Source: Nitrospirota bacterium
Lineage (GTDB): Bacteria; Nitrospirota; JACRHL01
Direction of reading: 5' to 3'
Assembly: GCA_029881725.1 (NCBI GenBank)
Contig: JAOUMB010000002.1
Coordinates: 43,398 to 107,397 of the forward strand
Length of the DNA: 64,000 nucleotides
Both the position numbers and the translations under genes were made by a program. The notes beneath the pieces are model-generated. The model did no database searches and was not told the DNA's origin. It saw nothing but the letters and a program-made list of their open reading frames with translations. Within the stretch, counting starts at the first letter, position 1. Each line of letters begins with the position of its first letter. Below are positions 48,533 through 61,098 of the stretch, piece by piece.

Positions 48533-48707
48533 TTGCGCCCCGCTCCGCGCGGCCCTGCGCGGAATTCCGCGTTTTTTCTCAAGTTCCGCTACAATGTTCT
48601 GAAGTCTGCATGACCGCCCGGAAACGGACGCGACACGGATCGTTGCGTCCCGGAAAACGTGTCATTGCCATTGACCCGTCCGGCCAAACGGCCGATGAAG
48701 GAGCGTT

Positions 48708-51700
48708 ATGGAACGGGTTCATTTTGACGTTATTGTTGTTGGCGCAGGTCCCGCAGGGGTCACGGCCGCCGCCGGAGTCGCACGTACCGGAGCCTCGGTG
48801 CTGCTGCTGGAAGCCGGGGCGTACGCCGGGGCCGAAAACTGGTCGGGCTGCGTCTATTTTGCCGAAAACCTCGTACATCCCGACGCCTTCGGGCCGGAGG
48901 CGATGGACGGCGCGCCGTTTGAACGGGCGGTGGTACGGCGGGGCATCGGGGCCACCGATGGCGACACCATGGTGGGCATGTCCCACCAGGACGCGTCCAC
49001 CTTCCAGCACTGCTACACGGTGCTGCGTCCGGCCTTCGATCCCTGGTGGGCGGAACGGGCCCGCCAATTGGGGGCCACGGTCATGCCGGGCACCACGGTC
49101 ACCTCGCTGATCCGCCGCGGCGGGCGCGTGGCGGGGGTCCATACGGAGCGGGGGCCCGCTTACGCCGACGTGGTCTTTCTGGCGGAAGGCGACGCGTCCC
49201 ATCTGGTGCGCTACGAGGGGCTGGAGCGGGTGCAGAGCCCGGACTTCATGCAGGGCGTGAAGGTGGTTCTGAACCTCCCGGCCTCCGAGATCGACCGCCG
49301 GTTCGGGCTGGCCCCCGGCGAAGGCGCGGCCTGGGAACTGATGGTGCGCAATCCGTCCCTGGCGGGGCGCAGCCTGCACCTGAACATGGGCGCCTTCCTG
49401 TATACCAACCGGGACTCCCTGTCGCTGGGCTATGTGGTGCCCCTGTCCAACCTGGCGAAGAACTTCAAGGGCAACCACGAGGACCTGCTGGCCTGGGTGC
49501 GTACCCTGCCGGGCATCGCCGAATACGTGGAGGGGGCGGAGGTATCCGCCTTCGGCACCAAACTGATCCGCACCGGCGGCCTGACCCAGGCGCCGATTCT
49601 GGTGGAGGACGGCCTGGCTGTGGGCGGCTCCGCCTGTGGCCTGGGCATCGACATCCCGTGCCCCAACTTTACCGGCCCCGCTTCCGCCACCGGCCTCTAT
49701 TTCGCCCAGGCGTTCCGCGACATGGCGCGCACCGGAAAGCCCCCCTCGGCGGCCAACCTGACCGCCCTGTATCTGGACCGCCTGCGCCAGTCCCGCTACT
49801 AGAAAGACGCCGATTCCCTGTCCGAATGGCCGCACTTCATGGAGTCGAGCCGCAACCTGTTCGGCAGTTCCGTGGATCTGGCCTGCGGCAAGGTACGCTA
49901 CATGACCGCCCGCGAACCGCAATGGAAGCGGTGGTGGCTGGTGGGCCGCTTTATGCGCGGCTACTACGCGCCGAAAACCGCCGCGCGGCTGCTTGGCGAC
50001 ACCCTGAAAATGGCAGCCTCCCTGCGGCTGGACAAATCCGTTTCCAAGGCGCTCACCTTCAAAACCGTGGGCGGTTGGGTGAGCAACTCGTTCGGCCCCG
50101 GAGCGCGGCCTCCGAAGGGCTTCCGCCTGGAGATGCGCTCCGCGGGCGAGCGCAAGGAAATCAGCGATCTTCCGATCGGCGTGCGGGGCATGGTTTCGCG
50201 CATGACCCCCTCCCTGTCGCGGGCCCTGGCGGCCGTGTACCGCAACGACACCACCCCCATCGAAAAACGCCTGGGCGAAGCGGTGGGGCACGTGGTGTCC
50301 GGCCTGCGCCTGAGTGACATGCTGATCGGCCTGCTGGCCGGAGCGGTGTCCGGGGCATGCGCCCTGGGAAGCGCCGTGATCGATCTGCTGCGCTATTACG
50401 TATTCAAGGTGTCCGCCGCCAAAATGCTGGCCGAACGGGTCACCGCCGACAGTGCCCGCATCAAGGATCAGCGGGAGTTGACCGCCGCCCCGGCGGACCT
50501 GACCATGGCCGGACGGCTGGCCACCAACACCTATCAGGAGGGTTCCGCAGCCCACATCCGCGTGCTGTGGCCCGATACCCTGCCGGAACACGGCCAGTTG
50601 GCGGACGCCCCCTACTGGTCCGTCTGCCCCGCCGGGGTATATGCCTTTGAGCCGTCCCTGGCCGGACACGGGGAGGCCACCGTCAACTGGGAAAACTGCA
50701 TCAAGTGCGAGTCGTGCTGGCAGTCGGCCGGAGCCGGCGTGCGCTGGGGCCGCCATACCGACCACCGGCTGATCTACCGCCCGGACACCCCGGCCCTGGA
50801 CCTGATCATGCCGCACGCCGAGTCCACCACCCATGCGCCGCACACGGAAACCACCGCCGCGCTTCCGGAACAGGCCCGGGGCGGCATCCACGCAGAGCCG
50901 CTCAAGGAGGTGGCGCGCCTGGCCCAGAGCGCCCACGCGGCCCTGACCCAGTTTGAAATTGCCGCCGCCAACGTTCCACGGGTGGCCGACGCCACCCGTC
51001 TGGAATGGCCGCGCCGCACCGGAGACGCCTCGGTACACCGCCTGCGGGCCCTGGAAACGGAGTTGACCGGCTCGGAAATCCTGCTGCTTCCCATGCGGGC
51101 CGGACTGGCCCACTCCCCGTTCACCGATCTGGCCCAGGCGCTGGCCGACGAGGGCGAAAGCCTGTCCGGGCACCTGCGCAACGGCGATCTGTTCGAAGCG
51201 GTTGCTTCCGCCCGGAGGGTGCGCGAAACCGCCGTGGCGGAGTTGTTTTCCGTGCTCGGCATCGATCCCCCCGGGGGCCCGGTGAACCTCACCCCGATGG
51301 CCGACCCGTTCGCCCCGGGAGCGGTGGAATCCGCCCTGCGCCAGCGGTTCCCGGACACCCGTATCAAGGAGTGGGAGCGGTACGGTCTGGAAGGGGCTGC
51401 CGCCCGTGAACTGGCGGACCACTTTAACGATCTGACCACCCCGACGGCGGAGCAGCCGCTGCCGGCGGACACCCTGGCCCACTTGCGTGCGTGGAGTTCC
51501 ATCCACGCGGGGGTGGCGACCCTGGGGCTGGCGCGCATCGCCGCGCGCAGCGCCACCGGCAATGCCAACGCGGTGCTGATGGACGGCTCCGGCCTGAGCG
51601 CCTCCCCGGATGGCGGCAACACTCGTCTGAGCGGCACCCTGGTTCTGGTTCCCGCCGCCTTGGGCGGTGATCTGATCATCACCCGGGACGGGCACGCCCA

Positions 51701-54700
51701 CACGGTTTCCGGCGACGATCCGGGACTGTCCCGCCGCAAGGTGGCGGCGGGCGGCCTGCACCCGGCGGGCTTCGAGACCATCCAGGTGGACGTGACCGTG
51801 CCCGCGGCGAAATCCAGATCGACCCACGCCGGGCTGCGCACCTTCCTTGCCTACGGCTACGGAACCATTGCCCTGGGCGCGGGCGACTATCTGGCGCGGC
51901 GTTCCCTGGAGCAGGGCCTGGGCCGCATCCAGTTCCCGGGTCAGATGAAAGACACCCAGGGGCACGACGGCGTGGCCAAGTTCGGCGCCGTCAAGGCGCT
52001 GGTGGCGCGCACCCTGGCCTGGCGCGGCCTGACCGCCGCCGTGGTGGAGCATACCAGCGGCCAGCCGGATCTGGCCGCCGCCGTGGCGGCCCTGGCCTTC
52101 TGCCCCAAAAACGGCCGCATGTCCTACGACGCCGGGCAGACCTTTGGCGGCACCGGCTACTCGGAGGACGACCTGCTGGCCCGGTTTTACCGCGACAGTT
52201 CGGTGTTTCCGTTCCTGGCCCCCGGCCACGGGGCGGTAGCGCGCGTGGCTTCGGAGTGGCGTGGTGACCGCTCCATTCCGCTGGCGGCCCGCCTCATCCC
52301 GGAAGCGGCCAGTGCCTTTGCACAGCTGGCCGAAGGACCGTTCAGCGACGAAGTGCAGCGCTGGCAGCGTGCCGCCGCCCAGGTGGACCGGCTGGAGGCC
52401 GACAATGGCATCGCCCGCGAGGCCACCGTGCTGGCCGTCGCCCTGTTCCACATGCTGACCGGGGCCGGCAGGGATCTGACCGCCGGACAGCCGGTGGAAG
52501 ATCAGTCCGCCCTGCTGCGGGTGCTGCTGGCGGAACTGGAGCAGATGGTCCGGCAGGCCACCACCCTGCCCGGCGCGGGCGCCCCGGCCACCGTCGCCCA
52601 TTTTCCCGAAATCCCCGACCGGGATCCGATTGCGCTTCCCATCTCTTACGCACAATTGGTGGAACGGGACGACCCTTATTCCTCCGGCGATTTCCTGCTT
52701 GGAAAGGACGTGGGCCAGCCGCGCTTCATCCCGGAAATCCAGCTTCACGACCTGGAACTGCGCGACAAGTGGGAGCACTGCTACCACTGGTTCCTGGAGC
52801 GGTGCGGCAGGATTCCGGGCGGCTCCGCACCGGATGGGGACGGCTTCTACGAACACTACATCGAGCGCATCCACAGCATTCCGCCGGACATGCTGGAAGG
52901 GTTCAAGGAACACGGCTTCTTCTGCACCGTGGTGCCCAAGGAACTGGACGGCTTGGGGTGGCGCAAGATCGGTTACTACCTGCTGGTGTCCGGGGCCATG
53001 CGCCACGGAGACGCCTCCCTGTCCCTGTTGATCATGGCCAGCACCAGCATCGGCATCACCCCGGTGCTGATCGGCCTGGGCAAGGAGGTGCCACTGGTAT
53101 CCGGCGAACTGAGCGCCTTCGCCAGCGAGCCGGCCCGGCTTGGGGACATCCAGAAGGGGCTGGACGCCATCGTCAAGAACCTCGACCGGCCCGACCCGGG
53201 GAAGCTGGAACGGGATTTCAAGAAGCTGCTGGACAAGGTGGACGGGCTGCGCAAGACCAAGGTGGTCAAATACCTGGCGCAGAATTTCCTGAAGGCCTTT
53301 TATACCGCCGCCCTGGCGGGCCAACGGCGTGATTTTTCGGCCTTTGCCGACGGCCTGCGCCAGGCGCAGCCGCTGCTGGCCAAACTGCCGGAAACCGTGC
53401 GTCACGCGCTGGACGAACTGCCGCGCCGGGAGCGCGCCCACCAGTTTTTCCTGCGCGGCATGAGCCACGGCGGTGTGGCGGCGTTCGCCCTGACCGAACC
53501 CACGGCGGGATCGGACTCCGGCGGGGTCACCACCACCGGCCACCTCAAATCGGCCACGGTGGAGCCGTTGCCCGACGGGCGTTTCCGGTTCGAGATCGAC
53601 GGCAACGAGCGGTTCCTGCTGGATGCGGACCGCATCGAGTTCAAGGACCGTTCCATGCTGTACAAGCTGGCGGACGGCACCCTGGCACCGGTGTCCACGG
53701 CCACCTATGACTACCAGACGGATCAGGGCGTGCGCACGGTGAAGATCGGCGGCAAGGACCTGCCGTTTCACGACATCGCCCAGGTGCGCGAAGGCAACGT
53801 CTACGAGTTTTATGAGCTCACCGGCGCCAAGATGTGGATCACCAACGGCCGCGTCTGCACCCACCTGTCCATGTATGTGAAGACCGACGAGGGCATTACC
53901 GGCCTGATGGTCGATCGCCACGCGGAAGGGCTGATCATCGGCCGCGACGAGGACAAGATGGGCCAGCAGGGGTCGCCCACCAACGAAATCGCCATCGACC
54001 GGGCGCGGGTGCCGCGCGAAGGGGTGATCGGCTACGAGGGGCATGGACAGGTCAATGCCCTGGACACCCTCAACGTGGGACGTTGCGGCTTGGCCACGGC
54101 CAGTGTGGTGATGGGCCGCCGCATGCTGGTGGAAGCCCTGAAGCGCATGCCGGACCACCCGGACCGGGAACGGGTGCTGGCGGAATGCTCCGCCCGCATC
54201 TTCGCCACCGAATCGCTGGTGTTCCATCTGATCGGCCGCTTCGACAACCACCACACCGAATCGCTGCGCATGGAAAGCGCCATCGCCAAATACGCGTGCT
54301 CCGAGATGTTCCACGATGTGCTGGATCGCATCGAAGGGCTGTGGGGACCGGCGGGGCAGACCCGTGACGAATTGCTGGAGAAGGCGCGCCGCGACGCCCG
54401 CATTCTCAACATCTACGAAGGCACCAACGAGGTCCAGCGGTTCCTGATCCTGCGGGAACTGGCCGGCATGATCAAAACCTGGGCGCCGGTTGAGATTCCC
54501 GAGGACGACGCCTTCGGGGTGCGCATGGCCCATCACAAGGAACGCCTGCGCCGCTATGTGGCCGAGGCGGACGACCGGCTGGGCGACTCCCTGTGGCTGG
54601 ACGCGGCCATTCAGCCCGCCTTCTTCCCGCTGGCGGAGATGGCCGGAGAACTGTACCAGTTGGATACGGTGATCTACCGGCTGCGCTGGCTGGACGAACA

Positions 54701-57035
54701 GCGGGCCGCGCTGGGCGACTATGCCACCACCATGATCGCCGTGGGCGAACGGGCCGCCGAACAATGCCTGGATCGGCTGGAGGAACTGGCGGCGCGTTAC
54801 GAACAGGGGCGCCGGGCGGCCCTGGACAGCCGCTATCCCGCCGAGGTCGTGGCCTCCGACGCCGCCATGCAGGAGCGCAGCGCGCAAACCCCGCCGGTCG
54901 GCGTGCTGAACCTGGATATGACCATCACCTGCCTGGTGCGCCCCGCCGCCGTGGTCTCCCCCCGGCCCCGGCTGGACGATCTGGGGCAGATTGCGGAGCG
55001 GGTGTGGCAGATGCACCCGGCCGATGAAGCCGCGCTGGCCACGGCCCTGGAGATTGCCGCCCGCGCCCATGGACGGGTGACCGTACAGGCGGTCTCCTGC
55101 GGCGGGGCACAGGGCGAACAGATGCTGCGCGACGCGCTGGCCGCCGGGGCGGAAAGCGCCACCCTGCTGCCGATTCCCGCTCACGCCACCCCGGCCGAGT
55201 GGGCCACCGCCCTGAAGGGCGTCAAGGGCGCCCGATGGGGTGATCTGGTGGTGTGCGGGAAGAACGGCGCGGATGGGGAATCACCCATTGGCGCCGCCGT
55301 CGCCGCCGCACTGGTGGCCAACTACCTTGAGTCCCCCTCCGTCGGTGTGACCGATGGTGGTGACGCACTTACCGATGCCAACGGCCAAGTTCTGGGGCCG
55401 AATACAGTGGTCTGCATGGACCGGGTGGGCGCCAGGGTCAACGCCACGGTCAGTGGCCGTGTGGTTGCGGGTAATGCGGGGATTGCCCGCCCCACCGTGG
55501 ACATGGAGCCGGCGCGGGTGGCGTTCTCCCATCGGGAGGGCACCCCCGCCGCGGGCCAGGTGGCCACCACCCCGACCGCGGCAGCCAGCCGCTTGATGGC
55601 CCTGGCGGATGCCGTTCGTCAACACGTGGCAGACCCGGTTTCCGGGACCATGGGCAAAGCCCCCCGGCCGGGCGGCGATGGGATTTGGGCCTTCGCCCAG
55701 GCCCACGAAACCCGGGGCGCCCTGGCCGCCTTTGGCGCGGCGGTGCAGTTGGGCAAGACGCTGGGAATTCCGGCCCGGGCCTTGGTCACCGGTTCGGAGG
55801 ACGGCATTCGCGCCGTGGCGGGACTCGCCCGGGATGCGGGGATCAGTTCGTGTCACGCGGTGAATACCGATGGAGCGGCCCTGTCCTTTTCCGGTGCCCG
55901 CAAACTGGTTTCGACGGTGATCGGGGACCACCCGGAACCCTGCCGCGTGGTTGCCCCCCGTGCCTGGGGTCCGGCCCTTGCGGCAGCGGGCGCCAACGGC
56001 CCGGCGGTGATGCTGTTCGGTGTCACCGGCATTGAGGGCAAGGGCGCCACCCTGAAGCTGGTACGGCCCGCCTACGACGACAAGCTGGTCCAGATGGCCC
56101 ACGTGGAACCGGCACGAGGGCTTTTGTTCACCGTTGCCGACAGTGCCGACTTCGGTCTGGCCGGACCGGTAACCAACTTCGCCCTCACCCGCGACGAAGC
56201 CGCAGTGGGTCCGGATGATCTGGACCCCACCTTCGTGCTGCCGGTGGATACGCTGGCCAATGCGGATGTGATCGTGGATGTGGGGTACGGCGCGGGAAGC
56301 GACGCGGGCCTCCGCCTGGCCAATGATCTGGTCGCGGCACTCAAGGCCATGGGCCTGTCTCCGCACCTGGGCGCAACCCGCAAGATCACCCAGGGCCTCG
56401 GATTGATGGGGCTGGACCACCAGATCGGTCAGACCGGACTGCGCGTCAATCCCCAGATCCTGTTTGCGCTGGGAATCTCCGGGGCACCGCAGCACGTGGA
56501 CTATATCGGCGGACGGGCCCAGGTTTTCGCATTCAACCGCGATCCGGACGCCCCGTTGATGAGCATGCGCAAGCCGGGAGTCACCGTGCATCCGGTGGCC
56601 GGGGATCTGTTCGCCACGGTTCCCGAATTGATCCGGGCCTTACGCGGCGGCCCGGAGCCAGGCCCCACCAGCCCCGGCCCGAAAACCCGTAAACCGGAAC
56701 CTCAAACAGCCGTCGCGGAGCCTTCCGTCGCCGAGGCGCCCGTTGCGGAGGAAGCGGTTACGGGTGAGGGACCAACTGAATCCCCGGTAGTTTCGGTGGA
56801 CGCAGAGGAAACCCCACAGGTCACCGAGACGCCAGAGAAGGCGACTACCCGCAAGCGCCCCGCTCCGGATGGATCGGCCAAGAAGGCCCCGGTCAAAAAA
56901 TCACCGGCCAAAAAGGCCCCGGCCAAAACCGGGACCGACGCTGCGGTGAAAAAGAAGCCCGCCACCAAGGGAACCAAGCCCGCCTCTGGCAAGACCGGCG
57001 CAGCCAAGCCAAAGGGCCCGAAAAAGAAAGACTAG
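48708..57035 (+). CDS. giant fusion: ETF:quinone oxidoreductase + acyl-CoA dehydrogenase-like modules + EtfB + EtfA + Lys/Ala/Pro-rich tail; interrupted by in-frame TAG at 49800-49802
   Basis: ORFs 48708-49802 and 49839-57035 are in the same frame, separated by one TAG; FixC/ETF-QO FAD domain VVGAGPAGVTAA; SVCPAGVYAF...NWENCIKCESC; ACAD FALTEPTAGSDSGG and NIYEGTNEVQRF; EtfB-like 54890-55560; EtfA IGQTGLRVNPQILFALGISGAPQHVDYIGG. Confidence 0.8.
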
Positions 57036-59088: not shown

Positions 59089-59649
59089 TTACTTGAGGCT
59101 CACCATGTAGGCCGCAAGCGACTTCAGCTCATCCGTCGACAAAAAGTCGAAGGACTGCATGATCGATTTCGGCGCCACGGAGCGCGGGTCCTTGTGGTGC
59201 TGCAGGTGCCACGGAATCGACGGCATGCGGCTGCCCACATGCATCAGATCCGGAGCCTTGCGGTCGGAACCGACCACGGTCGGCGCTTCACCCACGAAGT
59301 CGCCGGCCAGCGGCGGAGCACCGAAGTACTCCCAGTCCGCACTCTGCTCGGGGAGCAGGGTGTGGCAGTGCCAGCAACCCTCGCGGATGAAGATCTTCTT
59401 CCCAACGCCAACCGGGTTGGGGATCATCTTTCCGCGCTTCTCGATTTGGGGGGTGTTCCACCCCTTCATCAGCGGGTCACGGACCGACCATGCGGAGGTA
59501 CCGTACATCACCTGCTTTTCCAGCGCCAACTGCGTCGCGGGAACGGATGCCAGGTAGACACCGCCGACGCCGATGGTCATGAACACCGCGATCCCGAAGA
59601 TCAGCAGGAACATGATTACGCCGATCTTGTACTCTTTATAACCACCCAT
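59089..59649 (-). CDS. ccoO: cbb3-type cytochrome c oxidase subunit II (mono-heme)
   Basis: N-terminal TM; FIREGCWHCHTLLPEQ and GSDRKAPDLMHVGSRMPSIPWHLQHHKDPRSVAPKSIM. Confidence 0.9.
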   Translation of the reverse strand: MGGYKEYKIGVIMFLLIFGIAVFMTIGVGGVYLASVPATQLALEKQVMYGTSAWSVRDPLMKGWNTPQIEKRGKMIPNPVGVGKKIFIREGCWHCHTLLPEQSADWEYFGAPPLAGDFVGEAPTVVGSDRKAPDLMHVGSRMPSIPWHLQHHKDPRSVAPKSIMQSFDFLSTDELKSLAAYMVSLK

Positions 59650-59676
59650 TGGTGTGTTCTCCTATACAGCTTTCGC

Positions 59677-61098
59677 TTAGGTGTAGTACGCGGTGGCCGG
59701 AGGATTCTTCTCCGTCACCGGCTCACCAGCGGTGGCCGTCTTGTAGAGGTTGTACAGGAAGATCCACTGACCCAGAACGATCGTCAGACCGAACAGGGAC
59801 CGCCCAACCATGTACGGGTGGGTGGCGTACACGACGTCGATGAAGGTGGTGTTGTACACCTTGCCCGACGCCTGGATCAGACCGGCCAGAGTCAACGTGG
59901 TCCAGAACCCGATGAAGCCGACGGTGGTCAGCCAGTAGTGGGTGGTGGCCAGAGACTGGCTGTAGATCTTCCGCTGGAACAGCTTCGCAATCGCGTAGTA
60001 GGTCGCGCCGATCTCGATGAAGGTCGAGAATCCGAGCAACGCAAAGTGCGCGTGCGCCACGATCCAGTGCGTACCGTGAATGTACCAGTTGATCGCACGG
60101 GTCTGCTGGAAGGCACCCTGGAAGTTCAGGGGCACCGCCATCAGGGTACCGGTGAGAGCGAACTGGACGGACACGTTATCCGAGAACATCTGCCACTTGC
60201 CCTGCACGGTCAGCACCATGTTGGTGATGAACGCCAGCGACGGGATGAGGATCATCACGCCGGACACCGAGGCAAACGACTTCATCCACTCCGGGATCGG
60301 AGCACCCATCAGGTGGTGCGCACCCGGAGTCGAGTAGAACGCCACGATGGTCCAGAAGTGAAGGTGGCCGATCTTGTGGCTGTAGAGCACGTTGCCGGTC
60401 ACCTTCGGGATCACGTAGTACGCGATCGCCGCGGACACCGGGGTGATCCACAGGCCCAGCACGTTGTGCGCGTGCCACCAGACCATGTAGGCCTCGTTCA
60501 GACCGGTAACCGGGAACAGATCCGGAATCGCGCCGATGAAGTAGGTCATCCAGATCATCACCAGGGCTCCCAGGAAGAACCAGATGGTGATGTAGATGCC
60601 CTGGGTACGACGCTGGGTCACGGTCATGAAGGTGTTAACCGCGGCAAAGCCGAGGATGAACACCAGCACGTAGATATCAACCGGCCAGATCAGCTCCTGA
60701 TACTCACGACCGGAGTTGGCGCCCACCAGCAGCGACACGGCCGCAACGACCAGACCCACGTTCCACAGCCAGATGTTCCACAGGCCGAGCTTCTCGCTCC
60801 ACAGCCGGCAGTTACACAGGGCCGGGGTCATGTAGTACATGGCGGCCACGAAAGCCATGGAGATCCAGCCGAAGATCACCAGGGTAATGTGCATCGGACG
60901 CACACGGCCAAAGGCGAACGCCGAAGTCAGCGGACCCATCACGTCCACGCCGTTCAGCAGATCGGGCCATGCGATCCGCAAACTTGTAAAGAACCCGAAA
61001 GAGGCACCCAGGCACAGCCACACCACAGCGCTAAAGAACGCATGCTTGGCGGCGGTACCGGGCCGAATCCCCTCGTAGGTCGCAGTTGCAGTACTCAT
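59677..61098 (-). CDS. ccoN: cbb3-type cytochrome c oxidase subunit I
   Basis: 12-TM HCO fold; WWHAHNVLG, FYSTPGAHHLMG, HGTHWIVAHAHFALLG heme-copper His motifs. Confidence 0.92.
   Translation of the reverse strand: MSTATATYEGIRPGTAAKHAFFSAVVWLCLGASFGFFTSLRIAWPDLLNGVDVMGPLTSAFAFGRVRPMHITLVIFGWISMAFVAAMYYMTPALCNCRLWSEKLGLWNIWLWNVGLVVAAVSLLVGANSGREYQELIWPVDIYVLVFILGFAAVNTFMTVTQRRTQGIYITIWFFLGALVMIWMTYFIGAIPDLFPVTGLNEAYMVWWHAHNVLGLWITPVSAAIAYYVIPKVTGNVLYSHKIGHLHFWTIVAFYSTPGAHHLMGAPIPEWMKSFASVSGVMILIPSLAFITNMVLTVQGKWQMFSDNVSVQFALTGTLMAVPLNFQGAFQQTRAINWYIHGTHWIVAHAHFALLGFSTFIEIGATYYAIAKLFQRKIYSQSLATTHYWLTTVGFIGFWTTLTLAGLIQASGKVYNTTFIDVVYATHPYMVGRSLFGLTIVLGQWIFLYNLYKTATAGEPVTEKNPPATAYYT

Follow-up and report, generated by a model that had tools for sequence, protein, structure and literature searches.

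One reading frame, shared by five bacterial phyla, joins the modules of a putative acyl-CoA:quinone oxidoreductase

We analysed a 64,000-nucleotide stretch of the genome of a Nitrospirota bacterium (GenBank assembly GCA_029881725.1, contig JAOUMB010000002.1, positions 43,398 to 107,397; hereafter the window, whose own numbering is used throughout). A single reading frame in this window encodes, one after the other, an electron transfer flavoprotein (ETF):quinone oxidoreductase (ETF-QO) module, two acyl-CoA dehydrogenase (ACAD) modules of which one is degenerate, and the two ETF subunits, EtfB and EtfA. The frame starts with an ATG at 48708, directly downstream of a Shine-Dalgarno-like AAGGAG, and runs to a TAG at 49800-49802, after which the same frame is open to a second TAG at 57033-57035. 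The result is an open reading frame (ORF) of 364 aa (48708-49802) followed by an open frame of 2410 codons (49803-57035). A preliminary description had proposed just such a frame, interrupted solely by a TAG, and had named each of these modules; the domain searches recover all of them, at positions that agree with the proposed ones to about 0.1 kb. The helical insertion and the Lys-rich tail described below were not part of that description. The features along the frame, with the evidence for each, are as follows.

48708..49799, + strand: FAD domain of the FixC/EtfC-type ETF:quinone oxidoreductases, GxGxxG at residues 12-17 (hidden Markov model (HMM), PDB profile, Foldseek)
49800..49802, + strand: in-frame TAG, codon 365 (alignment with relatives)
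49803..50612, + strand: extra helical region between the FAD domain and the Fe-S segment (hydropathy, AlphaFold model)
50613..50792, + strand: ETF-QO/FixX-type [4Fe-4S] segment, C640 ... C664-x2-C667-x2-C670 (Cys conservation, weak profiles)
50793..51569, + strand: helical linker or putative N-terminal helical part of the degenerate ACAD (pseudo-ACAD) (helices in the models; poor sequence conservation)
51570..52277, + strand: middle (beta) and C-terminal domain of the pseudo-ACAD (2dvl_A profile, 2e-8; PF00441)
52278..52646, + strand: variable helical linker between pseudo-ACAD and ACAD (alignment, model)
52647..54827, + strand: VLCAD/ACAD9-type ACAD with large inserts in its N- and M-domains (PDB profiles, Foldseek)
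54885..55667, + strand: EtfB-like domain with a degenerate nucleotide-binding motif (4kpu_B, 9e-17)
55668..56651, + strand: EtfA domain, with a conserved FAD-binding half at about 56250-56507 (QIGQTG ... GISGAPQH) (PF00766, 6fah_A)
56652..57032, + strand: Lys/Ala/Pro-rich tail of about 127 aa (window species only)

The N-terminal FAD domain matches NF007450 at 7e-53, though under that model's full-length cut-off, and the profile of the FixC-type protein 7koe_C at 9e-43. Foldseek likewise returns 7koe_C as the best match (E 1.8e-21), with the ETF-QO structure 2gmh second. An insertion of about 270 aa precedes the Fe-S segment; it is helical and includes the helix with the highest hydropathy in the chain (about 50295-50393; residues 534-564 in the AlphaFold model), and the hydropathy maximum falls in this insertion in most, not all, copies of the protein. 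This helix may be a membrane anchor. The Fe-S segment itself gives weak profile matches (7koe_D, 0.002; 2gmh, 0.006), and its four Cys (C640, C664, C667 and C670) are kept in every copy readable there, one copy (L089) having an N in one of the codons. These four are the only invariant Cys of the region, from which a single [4Fe-4S] site is predicted.

The pseudo-ACAD exceeds the PF00441 cut-off in the search of the genome (24.6 bits) and retains the GG..[FY]SE[DE] and RD motifs, while its catalytic position holds Ala, Ser, Pro or other residues and never Glu in any readable copy; it is nonetheless a part that all copies conserve, and it calls for an explanation of its own. The second module is a complete ACAD, with its M and C domains (PF02770, PF00441) found at 8e-27 by Pfam scan, PDB profile matches to VLCAD (3e-43) and CarC (4e-43), and a Foldseek match to the VLCAD structure 3b96 (3.7e-14). 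Its catalytic Glu 1904 (54417-54419, in the motif IYEGTNE/S) is invariant in all copies readable there. When the two were modelled together with AlphaFold (residues 870-2040, nine sequences), the model reached a pLDDT of 83 and a pTM of 0.83, which indicates that pseudo-ACAD and ACAD pack in a defined way; among solved structures it matches VLCAD and its relatives best. The pseudo-ACAD is probably a built-in, non-catalytic companion to the active ACAD, one that would occupy the position of the second subunit in an ACAD dimer. We also note two inserts that ordinary ACADs lack, a helical one in the N-domain (about 53112-53387, residues 1469-1560) and a beta-rich one in the middle domain (about 53583-53807, residues 1626-1700), which could possibly be docking surfaces.

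The EtfB region, which matches the Pfam ETF domain at 7e-11, resembles EtfB of both bifurcating and canonical ETFs. Its DGDTxQ nucleotide motif, kept in bifurcating reference proteins, is eroded and variable across the copies, so that the site for AMP or FAD looks lost at the level of sequence. The EtfA domain exceeds the PF00766 (ETF_alpha) cut-off at 2e-16 and matches 6fah_A (CarE) at 1.3e-22, and its FAD motif is kept in all copies readable at the site. The Lys-rich tail that follows it is histone-H1-like and is absent from all other copies with a readable, aligned C-terminus.

We further note that the fusion is found well beyond the window genome. Among 60 related genomes, the same single-ORF protein occurs in the window's own family (genomes G003 and G001, 66% and 55% identity) and in a second Nitrospirota family (39-40%). 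A wider survey with a profile of the Fe-S and pseudo-ACAD region matched 19 of 399 Nitrospirota genomes, and located the fusion in samples of other phyla, named here as in the genome records: Planctomycetota (8/300), Acidobacteriota (6/297), Gemmatimonadota (4/251, a fifth match being short and Fe-S only) and Lentisphaerota (1/246). Eighteen copies from the five phyla are complete, uninterrupted single ORFs of 2577-2880 aa with the same domain order; their identity to the window copy, where measured, is 27-68%. Those shorter copies that were inspected (G016, G024, G002, G032, G589, G1216, G907 and the second copy in G1100) break off where the contig stops or a stretch of N begins, and we therefore reject them as evidence of separate genes. 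One Planctomycetota genome, G1100, seems to hold two copies (L084, at the end of contig C45, and L085), the second cut by a contig end. The copy L049, in Candidatus Kutchimonas, is frame-broken and has two N bases in the locus, and the break is probably a sequence error.

The phylogeny of the fusion was examined with two separate trees, one of residues 1-1190 and the other of residues 1300-2640. Both trees recover the same well-supported groups, and their branching orders match inside Nitrospirota, inside Acidobacteriota and inside the main group of Planctomycetota; the deep forks between phyla differ and are less well supported. The agreement indicates that the N- and C-terminal halves have travelled together.

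The window genome (2.96 Mb, 98.35% complete) holds the fusion once. No ETF_alpha domain, ACAD C-terminal domain or Fer4_ETF_QO match occurs in it outside the fusion, which itself carries one, two and one of these, respectively; this pattern fits a self-contained acyl-CoA:quinone enzyme. Another contig encodes a FadB/FadJ-like protein (693 aa; enoyl-CoA hydratase and hydroxyacyl-CoA dehydrogenase) adjoining a thiolase, and steps 2-4 of beta-oxidation are therefore present. G003, G001 and the Lentisphaerota genome G399 likewise have no ACAD other than the fused one. We found no conserved operon context, the neighbouring genes differing between copies, which fits a self-sufficient gene; unrelated bacteria carry acd-etfB-etfA as adjacent but separate genes.

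Taken together, the predicted protein is probably a single-chain acyl-CoA:quinone oxidoreductase with the order fixC-fixX-(pseudo)acd-acd-etfB-etfA. This supports the self-contained enzyme that the preliminary description had envisaged, as all four modules are present with conserved cofactor and catalytic residues, in sole copy in the genome, detectable by HMM and encoded by uninterrupted ORFs in five phyla. We infer its activity and direction, and base the electron route on what is already established for the component families. The VLCAD-like ACAD, with its FAD and Glu1904, would oxidise acyl-CoA to enoyl-CoA, and electrons would move singly to the FAD of the EtfA domain. By swinging or docking, that domain would reach from the ACAD face to the quinone module and pass the electrons on to the one [4Fe-4S] segment and the FixC-domain FAD; the latter would then reduce (mena)quinone at the membrane. 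EtfB would serve as a scaffold that has no working nucleotide site and hence allows no bifurcation, and the pseudo-ACAD would tether the quinone module to the ACAD as well as stand in for the second dimer subunit. Swinging of the EtfA domain is known from ETFs, and it would still be required here, with tethering keeping ETF at a higher effective concentration near both partners. Membrane attachment and intramolecular channelling, both suggested in the preliminary description, are likewise putative.

Several observations weigh against this reading. The Fer4_ETF_QO match of the Fe-S segment scores 17-23 bits, under the Pfam curated cut-off of 24, and hydropathy gives no clear transmembrane helix in the Gemmatimonadota copies and some of the Acidobacteriota and Planctomycetota copies. 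The N-terminal AlphaFold model is weak (pTM 0.52, with pLDDT below 50 in the Fe-S region) and hence does not allow cofactor distances to be judged; for the FAD domain it agrees with a fold of the FixC/EtfC and ETF-QO type, and for the Fe-S region it gives no firm prediction. Several other hosts keep additional ACADs, and some groups have a stand-alone EtfA as well, so that the fusion there may serve a special substrate. In the window genome itself, the TAG divides the FAD domain from the remaining chain.

This last point raises the possibility, which we hold tentatively and for the window copy only, of a recent pseudogene, or of a split gene whose second polypeptide starts at about 49839 and assembles with the first; either would be compatible with a single-chain enzyme in the family as a whole. 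In the two nearest complete relatives (G003 and G001) the codon in place of the TAG is TGG (Trp), and in the three remaining Nitrospirota copies of alignment A1 it encodes Gly; the genome has no second copy of the fusion. Against this possibility, the next ATG after the TAG, at 49839, has no visible Shine-Dalgarno-like sequence upstream, unlike the ATG at 48708, and none of the other copies was found to be divided by a stop. The 2410 codons after the TAG contain no further stop or frameshift and retain the catalytic residues, and the ratio of nonsynonymous to synonymous substitution rates (dN/dS) is 0.18-0.61 along the whole frame, the part after the TAG included, indicating purifying selection downstream. 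The FAD domain and Fe-S segment have a ratio of 0.18 and the ACAD one of 0.27; EtfB, the fastest-evolving domain of the chain, reaches 0.61. The GC content at third codon positions (GC3) is 0.85 on both sides of the TAG. The alignment points to a TGG-to-TAG change, with which a recent nonsense mutation and a one-base error in the assembly are equally compatible. An alternative code with readthrough of TAG was rejected, as the gene's own end is a TAG (57033) and the aligned relatives have a TGG or Gly codon at position 365. Given the TAG, we make no claim of a full-length product (about 290 kDa) in the window species.

A second alternative leaves the electron path of the single-chain oxidoreductase unchanged and assigns it a substrate out of the ordinary, such as a branched, aromatic or carrier-protein-bound acyl group. 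The additional ordinary ACADs and EtfA retained in many hosts, and the unusual inserts in the N- and M-domains, speak for such a role. We consider it unlikely, as the fusion holds the sole ACAD in the window's family and in one Lentisphaerota genome; there, this status and the FadB/FadJ-like enzyme and thiolase of the window genome make ordinary beta-oxidation the simplest role.

A bifurcating or NAD(P)H-linked enoyl-CoA reductase, in the manner of caffeyl-CoA reductase or EtfABCX, is suggested by the resemblance of the EtfA and EtfB domains to CarE/CarD and the Acidaminococcus Etf, and of the FAD domain to Thermotoga EtfC. It appears very improbable. The loss of the EtfB motif that bifurcating references keep, and the single four-Cys set, where Thermotoga EtfX has two clusters (PMC10734219), argue against electron bifurcation, and past the FAD domain the Pfam scan finds neither a separate NAD-binding domain nor a ferredoxin domain. 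An assembly chimera or a chance frame in high-GC DNA, where a GC content of 0.69 also yields an antisense ORF of 2201 aa, is rejected by the 18 complete homologous ORFs with their conserved catalytic residues.

That antisense ORF overlies the fusion at 48579-55184 on the reverse strand, and long antisense ORFs are also seen over the G003 and G001 copies; they are most likely an effect of the high GC3. Downstream of the fusion, at 59089-61098 on the reverse strand, lie genes for proteins that, judged from their translations alone, resemble cbb3-type cytochrome oxidase subunits.

In the textbook view, a mobile ETF shuttles electrons between separate acyl-CoA dehydrogenases and a membrane ETF-QO. 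On balance, the single-chain oxidoreductase seems to represent an undescribed class of protein: a chain of about 2,600-2,900 residues that would carry out the first step of beta-oxidation and pass the electrons to quinone, with a tethered ETF and a dead ACAD dimer partner, occurring as a unit in five phyla and forming the sole ACAD/ETF system of some genomes. Every module is already known, as are separate acd-etfB-etfA operons and EtfABCX; no description of such a fusion was found in full-text literature searches, whose coverage largely lacked subscription journals. The interest of the fusion lies in its size, completeness, sole-copy status and five-phylum spread. A natural protein with all parts tethered makes the question of whether ETF must diffuse directly testable. 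For structural studies of ETF-QO electron transfer it offers a complex whose stoichiometry is already fixed, and it adds physiological information on uncultured lineages about which little is known.

Among known systems, the closest by its FAD domain is Thermotoga maritima EtfABCX (PDB 7koe), whose EtfC is the best match in both sequence and fold and whose EtfA/B/C/X modules also feed quinone. EtfABCX consists of four separate subunits, is NADH-bifurcating and has two [4Fe-4S] clusters in EtfX (PMC10734219); it has no ACAD, whereas the fusion is one chain with one four-Cys set, a seemingly lost EtfB site and an ACAD included. The EtfD/EMO-type ETF:menaquinone oxidoreductases, which pass beta-oxidation electrons to menaquinone (PMC8593149, PMC13083937), do the same physiological job as is proposed here. 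They are, however, unrelated proteins, with an HdrD-like cysteine-rich domain and a membrane cytochrome-like part, and the Pfam scan of the fusion detected no cysteine-rich (CCG) or membrane cytochrome-like family of this kind.

The mitochondrial-type ETF:ubiquinone oxidoreductase (2gmh), the second-best fold match, shares the FAD domain and the C-terminal C...CxxCxxC segment. It is a stand-alone protein of about 580 aa fed by soluble ETF, whereas the fusion adds the helical part before the Fe-S segment and joins everything covalently. Bcd/Acd-EtfBA operons and CarCDE (6fah) share the ACAD, EtfB and EtfA modules, CarC and CarE being among the closest solved relatives; theirs are separate subunits with no quinone module, and CarCDE is bifurcating. 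For the ACAD domain, the best profile and fold matches, C-terminal extension included, are VLCAD/ACAD9 and the Bacillus FadE-type ACADs. These ACADs are homodimers with two active sites, whereas the fusion has one active and one Glu-less ACAD within a single chain.

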